From NCBI GenBank assembly GCA_021414245.1, contig JAIOOU010000007.1, positions 248,001 through 312,000 on the forward strand: 64,000 bases of DNA, written 5' to 3'. Of this stretch, positions 17,513-56,790 are shown piece by piece. The notes under the pieces are model-generated. The model had not been told where the DNA came from. It saw only the letters and a program-made list of their open reading frames with translations, and did no database searches. Numbering within the stretch: position 1 is the stretch's first letter; each line of letters starts with the position of its first letter. A program made the position numbers and the translations under genes. The stretch comes from Chloroflexota bacterium (GTDB lineage: Bacteria; Chloroflexota; Anaerolineae; Anaerolineales; Villigracilaceae).

Positions 17513-18085
17513 TTATTTGCTTAAATTCCACGCGGCGGGGAGTGCCAGTGCGGCCGCGATCAACTTGATAATATCACCGATTAGGAAGGGAACCAGGCCC
17601 AATGTGACCGCCTTTGCAAAACTGCCGAGTACAACGGCCAACCAGCTCACTCCACAGGCGTAGATGATGACTGTGCCGGCCAGGAAAGGCAGGAAGGAGG
17701 TCCGTACGCTTCTTTCCAGACCCCGTTCTGCCAGCAGGCCCATGGCATATGCGGCGGCGACGAAGCCGGCCAGATAACCGGCCGTGGCCCCGGTCAGCAC
17801 ACTGAGTCCATGAGCGCCGCCGGCGAAGACAGGCAGACCGAATGCACCCTCAACCAGATACAGTCCAAGGGCCGCCGCACCGCGTTTGGATCCCAGTGCA
17901 ACGCCGACCAGCAACACCCCAAAGGTCTGACCGGTAATCGGTACAGGTGTAAAGGGCAGGGGGATCTCCACCTGGGCCAGGGCCGCAACAAAAAGCGATC
18001 CGAGCATGATCAGGAGAACATCACGCAGCCAGGAGGATGTGCGTGGAAAATAACGGGTGGATAAGGTGGGGGCAAGTGTGGTCAT
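17513..18085 (-). CDS. bioY: BioY biotin ECF-transporter S component
   Basis: A 190-aa membrane protein with about six helices. Family marks: AQVEIPLPFTPVPITGQTFGVLLVGVALGSKRGAAALGLYL, GAFGLPVFAGG, GYLAGFVAAAYAMG and a C-terminal FLIGDIIKLIAAALALPAAW. BioY binds biotin in the membrane, alone or with the shared EcfAT module. No ECF ATPase genes are adjacent, so it must use a module encoded elsewhere or work alone. No clear BirA operator was seen upstream. It is divergent from the Mg2+ module. Confidence 0.93.
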   Translation of the reverse strand: MTTLAPTLSTRYFPRTSSWLRDVLLIMLGSLFVAALAQVEIPLPFTPVPITGQTFGVLLVGVALGSKRGAAALGLYLVEGAFGLPVFAGGAHGLSVLTGATAGYLAGFVAAAYAMGLLAERGLERSVRTSFLPFLAGTVIIYACGVSWLAVVLGSFAKAVTLGLVPFLIGDIIKLIAAALALPAAWNLSK

Positions 18086-18170
18086 AAAAGGTTTCCTTTG
18101 TGGATGATTTTCTATAATTCTAAACGAATTTACAGACCTGATAAGTCAGGGATTGCCCGATTTTAAATTC

Positions 18171-18199
18171 TTGACACCATCTTTTTACGGGGGTATAAC
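18171..18199 (+). promoter_or_regulatory. sigma70-type promoter of the magnesium module
   Basis: TTGACA at 18171-18176 and TATAAC at 18194-18199 are separated by 17 bp. The predicted transcript start (about 18206) lies just ahead of the M-box fold. Confidence 0.75.
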
Positions 18200-18212
18200 T
18201 ATTTTGTAATCT

Positions 18213-18400
18213 GAATAGTCCTCGTTAGGCGAGGCGTCTGCAAAATACACAAGCCATTGTCCTGAAACGTCGAAAGACGCCAAAGGGTATACCAGGTGAG
18301 GTCGGCATAAGGCTTCACTCAATGTGGCTGGGACCGGGAACGATCCCTACGATATGCAGTGCTAAAGCTCAACCAGAGAGGCGGCGCGTTCAACGCAAGT
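18213..18400 (+). ncRNA. M-box (ykoK) Mg2+ riboswitch
   Basis: The leader contains the conserved M-box blocks in order: CGTTAGGCGAGGC (about 18223-18235), AAACGTCGAAAGACGCCAAA then GGGT (18265-18287), GGCATAAGGC (about 18304), GCAGTGCTAAAGCTC (18356-18370) and a closing GCGGCG. Spacing matches the ykoK leader known from Bacillus. The aptamer binds several Mg2+ ions and shuts genes off when Mg2+ is high. It precedes three Mg2+-transport genes. A terminator hairpin follows immediately, the usual expression platform. Confidence 0.92.
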
Positions 18401-18407
18401 TTTCCCT

Positions 18408-18441
18408 GCCTCCTGGTCAATTGACGGGAGGCTTTCATTTT
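18408..18441 (+). terminator. M-box expression-platform terminator
   Basis: GCCTCC (18408-18413) pairs with GGAGGC (18427-18432). The intervening GTCAATTGAC is itself palindromic, and TTTCATTTT follows. Its place 8 nt after the aptamer fits Mg2+-dependent transcription termination. Confidence 0.75.
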
Positions 18442-18495
18442 ACCAACATGTGGTGCACAAGCAAATCCAGACACATGCTGCAAGGAGGTTTTCGC

Positions 18496-18606
18496 ATGGA
18501 CGATGATAGTCATAAACAAATAATGTTCGAACGAGGGCATGATTTGCATCATCCGTTCCGTTTGCATTCCTCCGCGCAACCTTGGCTGGGCCGCTTCAGT
18601 CCGTGA
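18496..18606 (+). CDS. 36-codon leader ORF between M-box and transporter genes
   Basis: ATG 18496 is preceded by AAGGAGG at 18482-18488, an ideal RBS seven bases away, the strongest in this leader. The peptide starts MDDDSHKQIMFERG and is rich in Asp and His (DLHHPFRLH), ending PWLGRFSP. A second intrinsic terminator follows 55 nt after the stop. In enterobacteria mgtA is controlled by a leader peptide (mgtL) whose acidic/Pro stretch senses low Mg2+ through ribosome behaviour. A similar role here is inference from position, the N-terminal DDD and the following terminator. The peptide itself matches no known leader. Confidence 0.55.
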   Translation: MDDDSHKQIMFERGHDLHHPFRLHSSAQPWLGRFSP

Positions 18607-18661
18607 ACTGAACCGGGGCCGGCCAGGCCGGGGGAACGGTAGCAGATGTCGGGTACGTGTG

Positions 18662-18698
18662 AATCGCCTTTCGGTCAACTGGAGGCGATTTTTGTTTT
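18662..18698 (+). terminator. second attenuator/terminator in the Mg2+ leader
   Basis: AATCGCCT (18662-18669) pairs with AGGCGATT (18683-18690), followed by TTTGTTTT. A GC-rich palindromic stretch (CCGGCC..GGCCGG, about 18616-18630) lies between the leader ORF stop and this hairpin. No gene ends here except the leader ORF, so the hairpin must act on the leader transcript. Confidence 0.75.
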
Positions 18699-18729
18699 CC
18701 CTCCAAAACAAAATTCTACGGAGGTACCC

Positions 18730-19986
18730 ATGGCTTTCTTGAGCGAAATTCTCGGCCACATCATCACCGATTTTGATGGCAACTATGTTGGAAAACTGGA
18801 GGATCTGATCGCCCGCGAACTGGCGGATGCGACCCATCCGATCGTGGATGCGGTGGTCATCCAGGGCAAGAACAAAATCATCATCGCGCCCTATGCGCTG
18901 GTGATGGCCTTGTTCGCGCCCTCGATACCCCTGAAATGCCGGGCGGATGAGATCCCCGATTATCAACCCGCTGAAAACGATATTTTTCTTTCGCGCGATG
19001 TGCTCGATAAACAGATCATCGATACGAATGGGGCACGTGTCATTCGCGTAAACGATCTCGAACTGGTCCGCGTCAACGGGACCCTGTATGTCGGCAATGT
19101 CGACATCGGCATGCTGGGAATTTTGCGCCGTCTCGGCCTGGATAAGGCCACCCTGCGCATGTCCTCGATCCTGAAATTCCGCGCCCCGCAGGTTTTTATT
19201 TCGTGGGATGACGTCGAACTGCTGCGTCATGATCCCTTCATGCGCCTGCGTGTGCCGGTCGAAAGCATTTCCGAACTGCATCCTGCGGATGTGGCAGAGA
19301 TCATCAGCGATATGAACAAACTCGAGAGCGGACAACTGCTGGAGGCGCTCAATATGGAGCAGCTAGCCGATACGCTCGAGGAGGTTGAAACCGAATTCCA
19401 GGCGGACCTGGTCGAAAACATGTCTGATGAAAAAGTGGCGGATCTGCTCGAAGAGATGGAGCCGGACGATGCGGCCGACCTGCTGGCTGAATTGCCTGAA
19501 AAGCGCAGCCGCGGATTGCTGGCCCTGATGAATAAGGAGGATTCGGACGATGTGCGCAAGCTGCTGTCGTATCCGGAAGACTCCGCCGGCGGCATTATGA
19601 CCACCGAATACGCCTGTGTCCCGCCGAATGTTACCGCGGAGGAAGCCATCAAATATCTGCGGGAAACCGCCATCGACGCGGAAACCCTCTTTTATGTGTA
19701 TGTCACTGACGAGCAGGATCACTTGAAGGGGGTCTTTTCCCTGAAGAACCTGATCTTTGCCAACCCCCAGGCGCGCGTCGAGGAGTTCATGGAGGACCGC
19801 GTCAAGAGCGTATCTTTGACGGACGAACAGGATGAAGTGGCACAGACCATTACAAAGTACGATCTGCTGGCCATCCCTGTGGTGGATGAACAGAATGTGA
19901 TGCATGGCATCGTGACAGTCGACGATGCGCTGGACAAGATCATTCCGACGGCATGGAAGAAGCACCTGCCTCGTTTTTACCGTTAA
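18730..19986 (+). CDS. PRC-barrel / MgtE N-domain / CBS protein lacking a membrane domain
   Basis: A 418-aa cytoplasmic protein starting MAFLSEILGH at 18730 behind ACGGAGGT. The order is two PRC-barrel-like segments (about 1-75, FDGNYVGKLEDLIARE; and 90-140, LDKQIIDTNGARVIRV). An MgtE_N superhelical domain follows (about 175-285, LHPADVAEIISDMNKLESGQLLEALN... DDAADLLAELPEKR). A CBS pair ends the protein (about 290-410, AGGIMTTEYACVPPNVTAEEAIKYLRE... AIPVVDEQNVMHGIVTVDDALD). These are the cytosolic Mg2+-sensing parts of MgtE without the pore. With the Nramp-related transporter 12 nt downstream, it is probably its Mg2+-sensing subunit or regulator. That pairing is inference, but the shared M-box supports it. 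Confidence 0.85.
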   Translation: MAFLSEILGHIITDFDGNYVGKLEDLIARELADATHPIVDAVVIQGKNKIIIAPYALVMALFAPSIPLKCRADEIPDYQPAENDIFLSRDVLDKQIIDTNGARVIRVNDLELVRVNGTLYVGNVDIGMLGILRRLGLDKATLRMSSILKFRAPQVFISWDDVELLRHDPFMRLRVPVESISELHPADVAEIISDMNKLESGQLLEALNMEQLADTLEEVETEFQADLVENMSDEKVADLLEEMEPDDAADLLAELPEKRSRGLLALMNKEDSDDVRKLLSYPEDSAGGIMTTEYACVPPNVTAEEAIKYLRETAIDAETLFYVYVTDEQDHLKGVFSLKNLIFANPQARVEEFMEDRVKSVSLTDEQDEVAQTITKYDLLAIPVVDEQNVMHGIVTVDDALDKIIPTAWKKHLPRFYR

Positions 19987-19998
19987 AGGGAGGCAGAC

Positions 19999-21285
19999 AT
20001 GGAAAATCAGGTTTTCATTAACCGCAACCGGCGGTTCTTTTCCTCTGTATGGAAGAGATTGCTGCTCATTCTGGCCGTTTTTGGTCCGGCGACGATCACC
20101 GCCATGGCGGATAACGATGCGGGCGGGGTTGCCACGTATTCCATTGCAGGCGCGAAATTGGGATATCCGATCCTGTTCCTGCTGCCCATCATTACCTTAT
20201 TGCTGGGCATCACACAGGAGATGGGAATGCGCCTGACCGTCATCACCCGGCGCGGGCTGGCGGACTTGATCCGTGAACGCTACGGAGTACGGGCCTCGAT
20301 GTTCATGTTTGGGGCCCTTTTGTTTGCGAATATCGGCACGCTCATCACGGAACTTTCAGCCGTGAAGACCACCAGCACCATGTTCGGGGTGCCTCCCATT
20401 CCCGCGGTGATCGTGATCGTGGTGATCGCATTTGTGTTGATCACGCGCGGCAACTACAAGATCACCCAATCCATCATGCTCCTAGCCTGCGGGTTTTTCC
20501 TGGTGTATATCTTCTCTGCGATCAAGGCCAAACCAGACTGGTCTCTGGCGCTCTCCAACCTCGCCTACCCGCACGGTGTGGTCTTTACCCAAACCTATAT
20601 AAAAGACTATCTCATTATTGGAATGGGTGTGTTGGGAACCACCATTACTCCCTGGGGGCAGTTCTTTATCAGCAGCTTTGCCTATGACAAGAAGATTGAA
20701 AAAGGGCAGGTTGCCTTGTCCCAACTGGAGACTTACTGGGGCGCCTTTCTGACCGACTTTTTCTCCTTTTTCATGATCGTGGCGACCGCAGCCACCTTGT
20801 TCGCCAATCACATCATTTTGGATTCGGGGGAGCGTGCCGCGCTGGCCATTGCCCCGTTTGCCGGAAAGATCGCCTCCCAGTTGTTTGCCGTCGGCATTCT
20901 CAATGCGGGTTTTATGGGTCTGGTGATTGTATCCCTGTCCACGGCCTATGCCTTTGCGGAATTTTTCGGTCTCTCAGGCAGCCTGGATGATACATTCAAG
21001 GAAAGCAAGACCTTCTACATTTTGTATATTGCACAATTGTTGATCGCCACCCTGTTCGTGATCCTGTCCAATGTCAGTTTGTTCCAGATCGCGCTGGTCA
21101 CCCAGATCATCAATGCCGTGGCCCTGCCCCTTGTGTTCTATTATCTGATCAGCCTGACCAGCGACCATGACCTGATGGGGAGTTATGTCAATAACGCCTT
21201 CCAAAGGAATTTTGCAGTCATCAGTTCCATCGCCATCGTGATTGCCTCGATTTTTACGGTTGTCGCGGTCACGGCTGGATTGTGA
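19999..21285 (+). CDS. Nramp-related magnesium transporter (NRMT-type)
   Basis: A 428-aa SLC11/Nramp-fold protein with about 11 helices. In classical Nramp the metal site is DPGN in helix 1 and MPH in helix 6. Here the corresponding stretches read TAMADNDAGGVATYSIAG and LGTTITPWGQFFISSF. The Met that favours soft transition metals is missing and the site is reshaped, as in the NRMT branch shown to carry Mg2+. The M-box upstream and mgtE downstream support Mg2+ rather than Mn2+/Fe2+. The start follows GGGAGG. Transport direction and coupling cannot be read from sequence. Confidence 0.85.
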   Translation: MENQVFINRNRRFFSSVWKRLLLILAVFGPATITAMADNDAGGVATYSIAGAKLGYPILFLLPIITLLLGITQEMGMRLTVITRRGLADLIRERYGVRASMFMFGALLFANIGTLITELSAVKTTSTMFGVPPIPAVIVIVVIAFVLITRGNYKITQSIMLLACGFFLVYIFSAIKAKPDWSLALSNLAYPHGVVFTQTYIKDYLIIGMGVLGTTITPWGQFFISSFAYDKKIEKGQVALSQLETYWGAFLTDFFSFFMIVATAATLFANHIILDSGERAALAIAPFAGKIASQLFAVGILNAGFMGLVIVSLSTAYAFAEFFGLSGSLDDTFKESKTFYILYIAQLLIATLFVILSNVSLFQIALVTQIINAVALPLVFYYLISLTSDHDLMGSYVNNAFQRNFAVISSIAIVIASIFTVVAVTAGL

Positions 21286-21331: not shown

Positions 21332-22711
21332 ATGGAAAATATCATCGAAAAGATCGATCTCGAAGGCTTGATCGAAGCACGTGACTTTAACACATTGCGC
21401 GAAGCGACAAGGAACTGGCCTGCTGGAAATCTGGCTGATCTGATGGAGCCGCTGTCGGCGGAGAAGGAGGCGGTTGTTTTCCGTCTGCTTTCCCGCGAAC
21501 AGGCGGCCGATGTGTTCGCCTATCTGTCCCTCGAAAGACAGGAGGAGCTACTAAAGGCCATGGCACGCGAAGAGGTGGCCGGCATTCTGAATGCCATGTC
21601 ACCGGATGACCGCACCTCGCTGTTGGAGGAGCTGCCTGCCAATGTGATCCAGCAGATGTTGAATCTGCTCTCATCCGAGGAGCGCACGGTTGCCTCGCAG
21701 CTGCTTGGCTATGACGAGGATTCGATCGGACGGTTGATGACGCCGGACTTTGTGCGCATCCGGCCGCACTGGACAATTGCCCAGGCACTCGATCATATCC
21801 GCCGCTATGGCAAGGACAGCGAAACCATGAGCATGGTCTATGTCATCGACGAAAACAATAAGTTGATCGATGACCTGCGAATTCGGCACATCCTGCTTGC
21901 GCCTCCGGAGACCCCGGTTTCGGATTTGATGGATTCCCGTTATATCTCCCTGAAGGCAACCGATCATCGTGAGAGCGCGGTCGAGGTCTTTAAGGATGCC
22001 GACCTGGTGGCTCTTCCTGTCACAGACATGGATAACTTCCTGATCGGCATCGTCACCGTGGATGACATCCTGGATGTGGCCGAGCAGGAGGCCACGGAGG
22101 ATATTCAAAAAATGGGCGGTTCCGAAGCCCTGGATGAACCGTATATGAAGATCGCCATTTCCAAAATGGTGCAAAAGCGCGCCACCTGGTTGATTATTTT
22201 GTTTCTGAGCGAAATGCTCACCGCCACTGCAATGGGCCGCTTTGAGGATGAGATCGCAAAGGCTGTCGTGTTGTCAATTTTTGTCCCGCTGGTGATCTCC
22301 AGCGGTGGCAATTCCGGTTCCCAGGCTTCCACTTTGATCATTCGTGCCATGGCACTGGGCGAGGTGAAACTGCGCGACTGGTGGCTTGTGATGAAGCGCG
22401 AAATATTGTCCGGGTTGTCCCTGGGCAGCATTTTGGGAACCATCGGATTCATTCGGATTTCCACCTGGCATTACCTGTTCAACTCCTATGGGGAACACTG
22501 GTTCTTGCTGGCTGTGACCGTTGGTATTGCCCTGGTTGGGATCGTTTTATGGGGATCGCTGGCAGGTTCCATGCTGCCATTTTTCCTGCGCCGGATCGGT
22601 CTGGACCCGGCCACTTCCTCCGCGCCCTTTGTGGCCACCCTTGTGGATGTTTCGGGGTTGATCATCTATTTTTCTGTGGCAGGTTTTATTTTACACGGTA
22701 CGCTTTTGTAA
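21332..22711 (+). CDS. mgtE: magnesium transporter MgtE
   Basis: A 459-aa protein of full MgtE layout. The MgtE_N domain (about 30-135) includes LADLMEPLSAEKEAVVFRLLSREQAADVFAYL. A CBS pair (about 135-260) includes DSIGRLMTPDFVRIRPHWTIAQAL and VTDMDNFLIGIVTVDDIL. A linker helix leads to the C-terminal five-helix pore (about 285-455) with VFVPLVISSGGNSGSQASTLIIRAMALGEV and GIALVGIVLWGSLAGSMLPFFLRRIGLDPATSSAPFVATLVD. Asp in LDPATSSAPF is the expected pore ligand. MgtE is a Mg2+ channel gated by its own cytosolic domains. It closes the M-box unit and ends at a terminator. Confidence 0.97.
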   Translation: MENIIEKIDLEGLIEARDFNTLREATRNWPAGNLADLMEPLSAEKEAVVFRLLSREQAADVFAYLSLERQEELLKAMAREEVAGILNAMSPDDRTSLLEELPANVIQQMLNLLSSEERTVASQLLGYDEDSIGRLMTPDFVRIRPHWTIAQALDHIRRYGKDSETMSMVYVIDENNKLIDDLRIRHILLAPPETPVSDLMDSRYISLKATDHRESAVEVFKDADLVALPVTDMDNFLIGIVTVDDILDVAEQEATEDIQKMGGSEALDEPYMKIAISKMVQKRATWLIILFLSEMLTATAMGRFEDEIAKAVVLSIFVPLVISSGGNSGSQASTLIIRAMALGEVKLRDWWLVMKREILSGLSLGSILGTIGFIRISTWHYLFNSYGEHWFLLAVTVGIALVGIVLWGSLAGSMLPFFLRRIGLDPATSSAPFVATLVDVSGLIIYFSVAGFILHGTLL

Positions 22712-56585: not shown

Positions 56586-56790
56586 TGAGAGAGAGAAACC
56601 CCGCTTATGCCGTGTACCGCCAGGTTTTGAACCTGCTTTTGCAGGTGGGTCCCTACCTAGAAACGCCGCCTTGGCTCAGGCCTATCGCGTTATTTCTATT
56701 AAGTTAAGGACCCTTTTAATCGGTATTGGCTCAAAACGTGAAGGCGATATCACGAACACAGAAGGGCTGTGATTCTTATACCATAATCAT
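56586..56790 (+). ncRNA. candidate structured RNA, possibly 6S-like
   Basis: This 373-bp gap (56542-56914) has no ORF of substance but is rich in pairable segments. AACCTGC-TTTT-GCAGGT forms a hairpin at about 56633-56650. GGGTCC (about 56650) can pair with GGACCC (about 56708). CGTG..CGCC near 56610 can pair with GGCG..CACG near 56745, closing a long rod. GCCT..AGGC makes another hairpin. A long rod with a central asymmetric loop is the plan of 6S RNA, which binds the RNA polymerase housekeeping holoenzyme. Support comes only from visual pairing, so confidence is low. Confidence 0.3.

Follow-up and report, generated by a model that had tools for sequence, protein, structure and literature searches.

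A putative leader-peptide attenuator with an acidic start between an M-box and a probable Mg2+-uptake operon in Anaerolineales

In transcription attenuation of the trpL type, a leader ORF is combined with a mutually exclusive antiterminator and intrinsic terminator. The signal read by a leader ORF can also be Mg2+: in enterobacterial mgtL and mgtQ, it is sensed through ribosomes that drop off while making an acidic nascent chain (PMC11282234, PMC8092293). When acidic residues stand side by side or are separated by a single position close to the N-terminus, ribosomes of Escherichia coli pause or dissociate (PMC11282234). In MgtL, whose ORF lies in the mgtA leader of E. coli and Salmonella, the motif is EPDP (Glu2, Asp4), and ribosome drop-off at low Mg2+ alters RNA folding and relieves termination (PMC11282234). 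The test construct in the same paper, which deals with EttA, needed at least DPEE for clear EttA dependence, and Pro was suggested to matter (PMC11282234). In mgtQ, an ORF of 8 codons located between mgtC and mgtB of Salmonella, Asp2 and Glu5 destabilize the ribosome and shift alternative stem-loops, which controls translation of mgtB, and the paper itself contrasts mgtQ with terminator-based attenuators (PMC8092293). M-boxes upstream of an MgtE fragment and nrmT have already been published (PMC4072509). The nearest published combination of an M-box and an upstream ORF that we found is the pe20 leader of Mycobacterium tuberculosis, where the M-box is followed by a conserved small ORF, uORF2 (PMC12810186).

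The leader analyzed here spans positions 18171-18730 of the window, by which we mean the whole stretch of 64,000 nucleotides under analysis, and is located upstream of a probable Mg2+-uptake operon of an uncultured Anaerolineales bacterium. Its elements, all on the forward (+) strand, follow each other in the order promoter, M-box, terminator 1 (T1), Shine-Dalgarno sequence (SD), 36-codon ORF, terminator 2 (T2) and gene 1, which starts at 18730. A likely promoter at 18171-18199 was read from the sequence (TTGACA at 18171-18176, a 17-nt spacer and TATAAC at 18194-18199); it is absent from our promoter-scan list because the scan demands a final T, and similar promoter pairs were noted by eye upstream of the leaders of several relatives. 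The M-box riboswitch aptamer (RF00380) was detected by cmscan at 18214-18387 in full length, with 127.8 bits and an E-value of 2.6e-28 (gathering threshold 44). Its 3' part (18371-18385) serves as the putative T1 antiterminator and forms a predicted duplex of -20.7 kcal/mol with the 5' arm of T1 (18404-18424). T1 itself (18408-18441) consists of a hairpin at 18408-18432 with a dG of -14.7 and a T-rich tail, TTTCATTTT, and is presumed to be the output of the M-box. Judged by the sequence of the window alone, the antiterminator/terminator switch expected downstream of an M-box is present, while the Mg2+ response itself is inferred. At a permissive threshold, only five sub-threshold Rfam matches were obtained in 18380-18800 (eukaryotic, CRISPR and unrelated sRNA families), and therefore no second known riboswitch was seen in this region. 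Single-sequence folding of 18390-18500 was uninformative. The stretch 18442-18745 folds better than its shuffles (z -2.91), and its minimum-energy structure was not used in the analysis. Elsewhere in the window, a 6S RNA (RF00013, 81 bits) is located at 56594-56770 on the minus strand.

The leader ORF (18496-18606) starts with ATG, comprises 36 codons, ends with TGA and encodes the peptide MDDDSHKQIMFERGHDLHHPFRLHSSAQPWLGRFSP, which begins MDDDSHK. Its SD, AAGGAGGT (18482-18489), is the strongest in the leader; with a duplex of -12.4 kcal/mol it ranks above all other ATG, GTG and TTG starts in 18214-18730, the runner-up being gene 1 itself with -10.4, and only 2 of the 49 long ORFs of the window, each taken at its best start, have a better SD. 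The statement of the first-pass annotation that a 36-codon ORF has the best ribosome-binding site of the leader was thereby confirmed. Complementarity of the SD to the 3'-end of the 16S rRNA extends over 8 contiguous bases in the window and up to 14 in some relatives. The 3' tail used for this scoring is an assumed 16S rRNA end, because no 16S rRNA was found when the source genome was searched. The acidic codons 2-4 (Asp-Asp-Asp, 18499-18507) are the proposed site of ribosome abort at low Mg2+.

Downstream of the leader, gene 1 (18730-19986) encodes an MgtE_N and CBS protein, with Pfam matches to PF03448 and PF00571 only and without a membrane-domain match. Gene 2 (19999-21285) encodes an NRMT-type Nramp (Pfam Nramp), and gene 3 (21332-22711) a full-length MgtE with membrane domain (Pfam MgtE_N, CBS and MgtE). 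The closest PDB match of gene 2 is EleNRMT (7qia) with 225.6 bits, compared with 80.8 bits for the next structure, and its binding motifs DAGG and TTIT, aligned to 7qia, satisfy DxxG-TxxA/T, the binding motif of Mg2+-transporting NRMTs (PMC8806188). A relative of gene 2 follows gene 1 in 11 of the 13 loci checked, which include two same-genome pairs; gene 2 was not seen at L007 and was cut off at L036. On account of the NRMT match, the motifs and the linkage of the two genes in relatives, the MgtE_N/CBS-NRMT-MgtE operon most likely serves Mg2+ uptake, transport itself being inferred from the predicted proteins. This assignment comes with a caveat by analogy, as an MgtE-fragment-linked outgroup Nramp of Acidobacterium capsulatum was judged to be likely mainly a Mn2+ transporter (PMC4072509). 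Gene 1 may encode a split MgtE-like regulatory domain that gates the NRMT; gating of an NRMT by an MgtE fragment is presented as speculation in PMC4072509. Seven named loci were found with gene 1, six of which are close and belong to Chloroflexota/Chloroflexi, Anaerolineales or Anaerolineaceae MAGs, while the seventh, from a Sphaerobacteraceae MAG, matches at 36% over half of the protein; these relatives place the window in a metagenome-assembled genome of Anaerolineales (Chloroflexota).

T2 (18661-18699) consists of a hairpin at 18661-18691 with a dG of -14.4 and a U-tract (tail TTTTTGTTTTC); the hairpin is followed by TTTTTGTTTT and lies 5' of gene 1. It had been described as a hairpin before the first transporter gene, and T2 does precede gene 1, but since gene 1 lacks a membrane domain, the first membrane transporter is gene 2. 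Viewed alone, T2 is unremarkable: a mechanical scan, which missed T1, returned 1 terminator-like site in 18080-18760 against 0.7 expected, and the 106 bases of 18600-18705 fold no better than shuffles (z 0.33). As T2 is not unusual in the window alone, its weight comes from relatives.

From genomes of the same order, we retrieved the sequence preceding gene 1 orthologs in 60 cases, leaving out further near-full-length rows. Together with the window, these form a set of 61 leaders, in which some stretches end at contig ends; one of only 131 bases (L074) has no ORF. The ORF of each leader was chosen by the strongest SD alone, blind to the encoded peptide. An SD of -10 kcal/mol or stronger was found in 27 of the 61 leaders, and 25 of these 27 ORFs start with M(D/S/N)xD or a close variant, whereas M[DSN]xD occurs in 1 of the 49 long window ORFs used as a control. 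The two exceptions are L117, whose TTG start appears to be spurious, and L120, where MDENEHDF seems to belong to another gene. At least two acidic residues within codons 2-5 were present in 22 of the 25 strong-SD leaders compared with 1 of 49 window genes, and the mean number of acidic residues in these codons was 2.24 in frame versus 0.12 and 0.04 in the other frames. Near-duplicates (L084 and L118) were excluded from the pN/pS analysis and from the arm-pairing tests described below. In the remaining 23 leaders, pN/pS over codons 2-4 was 0.26 in frame compared with 1.68 and 1.19 out of frame; judged from these substitution patterns, for which there are no accompanying ribosome data, codons 2-4 evolve as coding. 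Ser or Asn occupies position 2 in 4 of the 23 distinct leaders, where the first acidic residue is at position 4. The remainder of the peptide and its length are poorly conserved, the start codon varies between ATG, GTG and TTG, and GC immediately precedes the start codon in 17 of 25 leaders. The peptide had been characterized in the first-pass annotation as beginning with MDDD and rich in His and Asp; the acidic N-terminus is conserved, but the His richness (5 of 36 residues in the window) is, by eye, not. A comparison of orthologous leaders had been proposed as a check, and absence of the ORF in relatives as a ground for refutation. This ground does not apply, as relatives, hold-out genomes among them, have the ORF with its acidic start and T2 as well, although not every ortholog does. 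The anatomy of the suggested second Mg2+ sensor, a leader ORF and a second terminator behind an M-box, likewise recurs, its dependence on Mg2+ remaining an inference.

At codons 5-6 (18508-18513 in the window), Ser is encoded by AGT in 21 of 22 cases over the 23 leaders. AGT accounts for 10.6% of the Ser codons in long window ORFs, and it recurs, by eye, in leaders of other orders. AGT might be a slow codon by which the ribosome is kept in place for as long as the acidic chain takes effect. When 400 phylum genomes were searched with a strict DNA pattern covering SD and start, only the window matched; the pattern was dropped as too strict because genomes with variant leaders were present in that sample.

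For a segment inside the ORF, from +28 to +54 (18524-18550), a duplex of 21 pairs and -18.3 kcal/mol is predicted with 18657-18680, which comprises the T2 5' arm and loop. The specificity of such pairing was assessed by an own-versus-foreign test, based on the double-centred duplex energies of each leader's segment with its own T2 arm and with foreign T2 arms. This corrects for base composition and for the tendency of GC-rich arms to pair generically. The set of 21 leaders comprised the 20 of the 23 distinct leaders with a T2 and, in addition, L031, whose ORF and hairpin were both placed by hand; the strict finder detected no T2 in the other three (L072, L076 and L081), which are outside the set. 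A scan of 40-base segments from -160 to +180 gave a single peak, with z -7.0, -7.6 and -6.0 for segments starting at +20, +30 and +40, and the largest other value was -3.0 in the adjoining segment at +10. Reduction to 12 representatives still gave z -4.9 with p 5e-5, the limit of 20,000 permutations, and the own arm ranked first or second in 8 of them and fifth to seventh in 4. The ORF nucleotides around +28 to +70 are thus complementary to the T2 5' arm, and own arms clearly beat foreign arms only there. Two clades carry different ORF segments, each fitting its own arms (A x A -15.3 and B x B -17.0 kcal/mol, versus A x B -11.6 and B x A -11.9). In the clade of the window the ORF site lies at +34 to +54 in 6 of 6 leaders, and in the second clade, loop included, at +45 to +65 in 3 of 5, at +46 to +83 in L079 and at +58 to +73 in L080. 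By eye, these pairing sites are the clearest conserved blocks of the alignments between the start region and T2, and the 5' edge of the antiterminator lies at +28 or later in all 21 leaders (the search began at +20).

Results for individual leaders were weaker. When the arm alone was matched along the leader, a best partner inside the ORF was found for 10 of 20 leaders, 8 of these sites being within +24 to +84; in 9 leaders the best partner was at the SD, and in 1 it lay upstream. Compared with shuffles of its own region, the ORF:arm duplex reached p <0.05 in only 4 of 21 leaders (window p 0.26), and the pairing claim therefore rests on the leader set and not on one leader. In folds of the nascent RNA from +25 to the T2 loop, the pairing probability of arm and ORF exceeded 0.5 in 21 of 21 leaders, and T2 formed (>0.5) in 21 of 21 when +25 to +85 was masked; however, this result is only moderately specific, because foreign arms also paired often in the same leaders (0.53 versus 0.74 for own arms). 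In the full RNA, antiterminator and T2 are about balanced (means 0.40 versus 0.45; in the window 0.37 versus 0.52, with T2 ahead), which is why antitermination would have to be kinetic and take place before the 3' arm emerges. A matching site was also found at the ORF end in the group 2 leaders (z -3.7 to -4.1, n=11), with ORF starts picked by eye or from the SD-only choice. In eight leaders from other orders, which were chosen with an acidity filter so that their acidity is not blind, the peak is in the region of the stop codon (z -3.3), the site being on the stop or immediately after it in 6 of the 8. That an antiterminator within the ORF, which the first-pass annotation had not seen, links the peptide and the terminator into a putative attenuator is well supported by this comparison.

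Hold-out leaders were obtained from a search of 152 family genomes, which gave nine new rows. Eight of these were fetched (G1120 begins at a contig end), and one, L164, was dropped from the count as a repeat of L031 (own-arm rank 5 of 27). All 7 new leaders start with MDADS, MDADG or MDADD by the SD-only choice, and all 7 contain an M-box, one of them cut off by the fetched end. With the segment +30 to +70 fixed beforehand, three new leaders placed their own arm at ranks 2, 1 and 3 of 27, and L168 and L171, for which the finder had picked a weaker hairpin, at ranks 14 and 11 of 27; no T2 was detected by the strict finder in L169 and L170. Choosing the strongest hairpin instead, a decision made after seeing the results, gave ranks of 2, 1, 7 and 2 of 21 for L168 to L171.

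We consider it likely, although by no means settled, that the locus encodes a ribosome-mediated transcription attenuator acting as a second Mg2+ checkpoint behind the M-box. At the sequence level there is good support for the ORF with its acidic start, for T2 and for complementarity between the two, whereas translation, the Mg2+-dependent abort and the direction of the switch are inferred without expression data. At low Mg2+ the M-box would open, as is established for this riboswitch, T1 would not be formed and RNA polymerase would reach the leader ORF, onto which the strong SD is inferred to load ribosomes continuously. With ample Mg2+, ribosomes would clear the acidic codons, cover +28 to +54 and block pairing of the antiterminator with the T2 arm; once the antiterminator is masked, T2 would form and transcription would stop, the pairing being predicted and the direction inferred. 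This OFF state would need following ribosomes, because +28 to +54 is uncovered again by the time a ribosome has reached the stop codon (+108). When Mg2+ is scarce, a 70S ribosome carrying the acidic N-terminal chain would dissociate or stall at about codons 3-5, as on mgtL and mgtQ. Given the size of the ribosome footprint, the leading edge of the aborted ribosome would lie at approximately +25 to +30, and since this is just upstream of the antiterminator, the latter would stay free, capture the T2 5' arm and allow transcription into the MgtE_N-NRMT-MgtE genes. The analogy with mgtL is weakened because the window peptide has DDD and lacks the Pro that is suggested to matter in PMC11282234.

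The same attenuator could also respond to ribosome supply or stalling in general, such as Asp-tRNA shortage, antibiotics or a global failure of translation, with Mg2+ felt only via the M-box. The antiterminator would be freed by any stall up to approximately codon 5, positions 2 and 4 are mostly Asp codons, the Pro that was important in the construct of the EttA paper is missing here (PMC11282234), and attenuators in which an upstream ORF senses ribosome-targeting drugs have been published. Nevertheless, we regard a general stall signal as unlikely in view of the cargo, a probable Mg2+-uptake operon, and of the peptides themselves: positions 2-5 mix D, S, N and G instead of presenting one codon, other orders use D and E interchangeably (METD, MEAE, MDED), and the LDPDP, LDPDH and LEE...DVPP peptides of other clades (by eye) are mixes of acidic residues and Pro and not one amino acid. 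The SD itself was also considered as the antiterminator, pairing with the T2 5' arm in an anti-SD-like manner so that ribosome binding would expose the arm. Pairing of the SD with the own arm is slightly above that with foreign arms (permutation p 0.023), no other single site pairs better with the arm than the SD does in 9 of 20 leaders, and the pairing is very strong in L075 and L085 (-25.0 and -29.7). However, GGAGG pairs with many CCTCC-like arms, SD segments reached only z -2.2 in the own-versus-foreign test compared with -7.6 inside the ORF, and the effect was not significant in the 12 representatives (p 0.11). SD-T2 pairing as the switch was therefore mostly set aside, and we think it improbable.

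An untranslated DNA or RNA element, for example a regulator site or a structured RNA, would account for the conservation at the nucleotide level, including the AGT Ser codons (21/22) and the GC before the start (17/25). It would not be expected to show the strong frame dependence of acidity and pN/pS, nor the interchange of D and E across orders, the variety of ATG, GTG and TTG starts and the strong SD, so that very little speaks for this possibility. In the window alone, one could even think of an ORF that arose by chance, with a riboswitch before it and an ordinary terminator behind it, as the T2 count, the 106-base fold and the comparison of the ORF:arm duplex with shuffles are all unremarkable there; the recurrence of ORF and T2 and their matching across lineages make a purely incidental arrangement scarcely tenable.

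The Mg2+ attenuator that we favor was followed beyond the family with a strict motif in 99 leaders of at least 340 bases from the order and class sets, some of which are closely related among themselves. An ORF of the strict M[DE]x[DE] type was present in 29 of 61 leaders with a terminator but in 2 of 38 without one, and in 2.7% of 1980 shuffled leaders. For the class-level set, 40 regions were fetched and further near-full-length rows left out. By the SD-only choice, an M[DE]x[DE] start was found in 6 of 39 class-level leaders, most of the class set being without such an ORF. An SD of -10 or better is absent from all 39 of the class-level leaders whose ORF could be scored, strong SDs occurring only within the order. 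The peptides of other orders, MDEDNSSSHK, METDSSNSH, MDTDSSSSH, MDSDGSNG and MEAESSSP, have weak SDs, and more distant leaders of the same order have LDPDPQ, LDPDH or LEE/LED...DVPP peptides (chosen by eye). Of the 25 strong-SD leaders, 13 contain an Rfam M-box, none being detected in the other 12, and a single leader, L102, has an M-box without such an ORF; to the extent that both can be recognized in sequence, the ORF with T2 is wider in occurrence than the M-box. Several orthologs, e.g. L086, L088, L094 and L095, have neither M-box nor ORF. In these four, a hairpin follows soon after the promoter with no clear leader ORF behind it, which is perhaps another control design for the same operon.

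Like mgtL, the window leader has a short ORF upstream of a probable Mg2+ importer, and positions 2 and 4 of its peptide (MDDD) are acidic, which meets what defines the type in this respect (PMC11282234). However, mgtL uses a Rho-dependent terminator and EPDP with Pro, whereas here a U-tract hairpin is combined with an ORF-internal antiterminator, the start is mostly D-A/S/T/D-D, transporter family and phylum are different, and an M-box may precede. The window peptide has no Pro before residue 20 and does not show the acidic-Pro alternation; because this pattern is absent and the terminator is an intrinsic-type hairpin, the leader was not filed as a member of mgtL. With mgtQ it shares the acidic residues near the start and the alternative structures, but mgtQ is intergenic, has 8 codons and controls translation (PMC8092293). 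From the M-box (ykoK leader, RF00380), which is present here with its own terminator, the arrangement differs in the second, presumably translation-dependent terminator and in the occurrence of ORF and T2 without a detected M-box in relatives. As in the trpL type, also drawn on for contrast in PMC8092293, a leader ORF is combined with mutually exclusive antiterminator and terminator; the latter pair is supported by the leader comparison, with weaker or adverse results for single leaders, and translation of the ORF by its coding signature in relatives, in the absence of ribosome data. Unlike the trpL type, there is no run of codons for a biosynthetic product, the operon encoding metal transport, the antiterminator lies inside the ORF in the clade of the window, and the presumed signal is Mg2+. 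In pe20, the M-box controls the upstream ORF via a translational platform and Rho, the mapped stops lack a canonical intrinsic terminator, and no acidic-abort/antiterminator design was found in the parts of the paper considered here (PMC12810186). The suggestion of the first-pass annotation that an M-box coupled to a leader ORF and a second terminator is undescribed thus holds only in part: an M-box with a conserved upstream ORF has been published in pe20, which differs in its platform and in Rho. Among the matches listed from the open-licence literature, seen mostly as titles and the beginnings of abstracts, there was no report of an M-box combined with a leader-peptide attenuator and an intrinsic terminator, and none of acidic leader peptides in Chloroflexota.

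We lean, by a narrow preference only, towards an attenuator family that extends over the class Anaerolineae, with the stability of the translating ribosome as the putative Mg2+ sensor, an antiterminator that lies within the ORF or at its end and couples this sensor to an intrinsic terminator, and an origin separate from enterobacterial mgtL; in the family of the window it would often stand behind an M-box and form a two-input gate. If this is true, RNA would read free Mg2+ and translation would then read ribosome-effective Mg2+, and the tandem raises the testable question of why Mg2+ is measured twice on one transcript. Should such sensing prove to recur in Chloroflexota with divergent sequences, this would point to the ribosome as a general sensor of Mg2+ that was recruited more than once in evolution, and the intrinsic terminator would provide a simpler readout that is testable in a reconstituted system.

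Further leader peptides were noted among the relatives. In L107, L108, L110 and L115, a second conserved acidic and Pro-containing leader peptide, GSDS..GE(E/D).AQPPS, lies upstream of gene 1; the hairpin of L107 is very weak (-4.9), and no T2 was detected by the finder in the other three. In L144, at about -173 to -74 from gene 1, a frame contains ...EEVIAIDADHKS..., which resembles the EVIALDADDH start of L077 and L080; an Ile codon is found where these two have their TTG start, indicating a decayed or non-canonical start.
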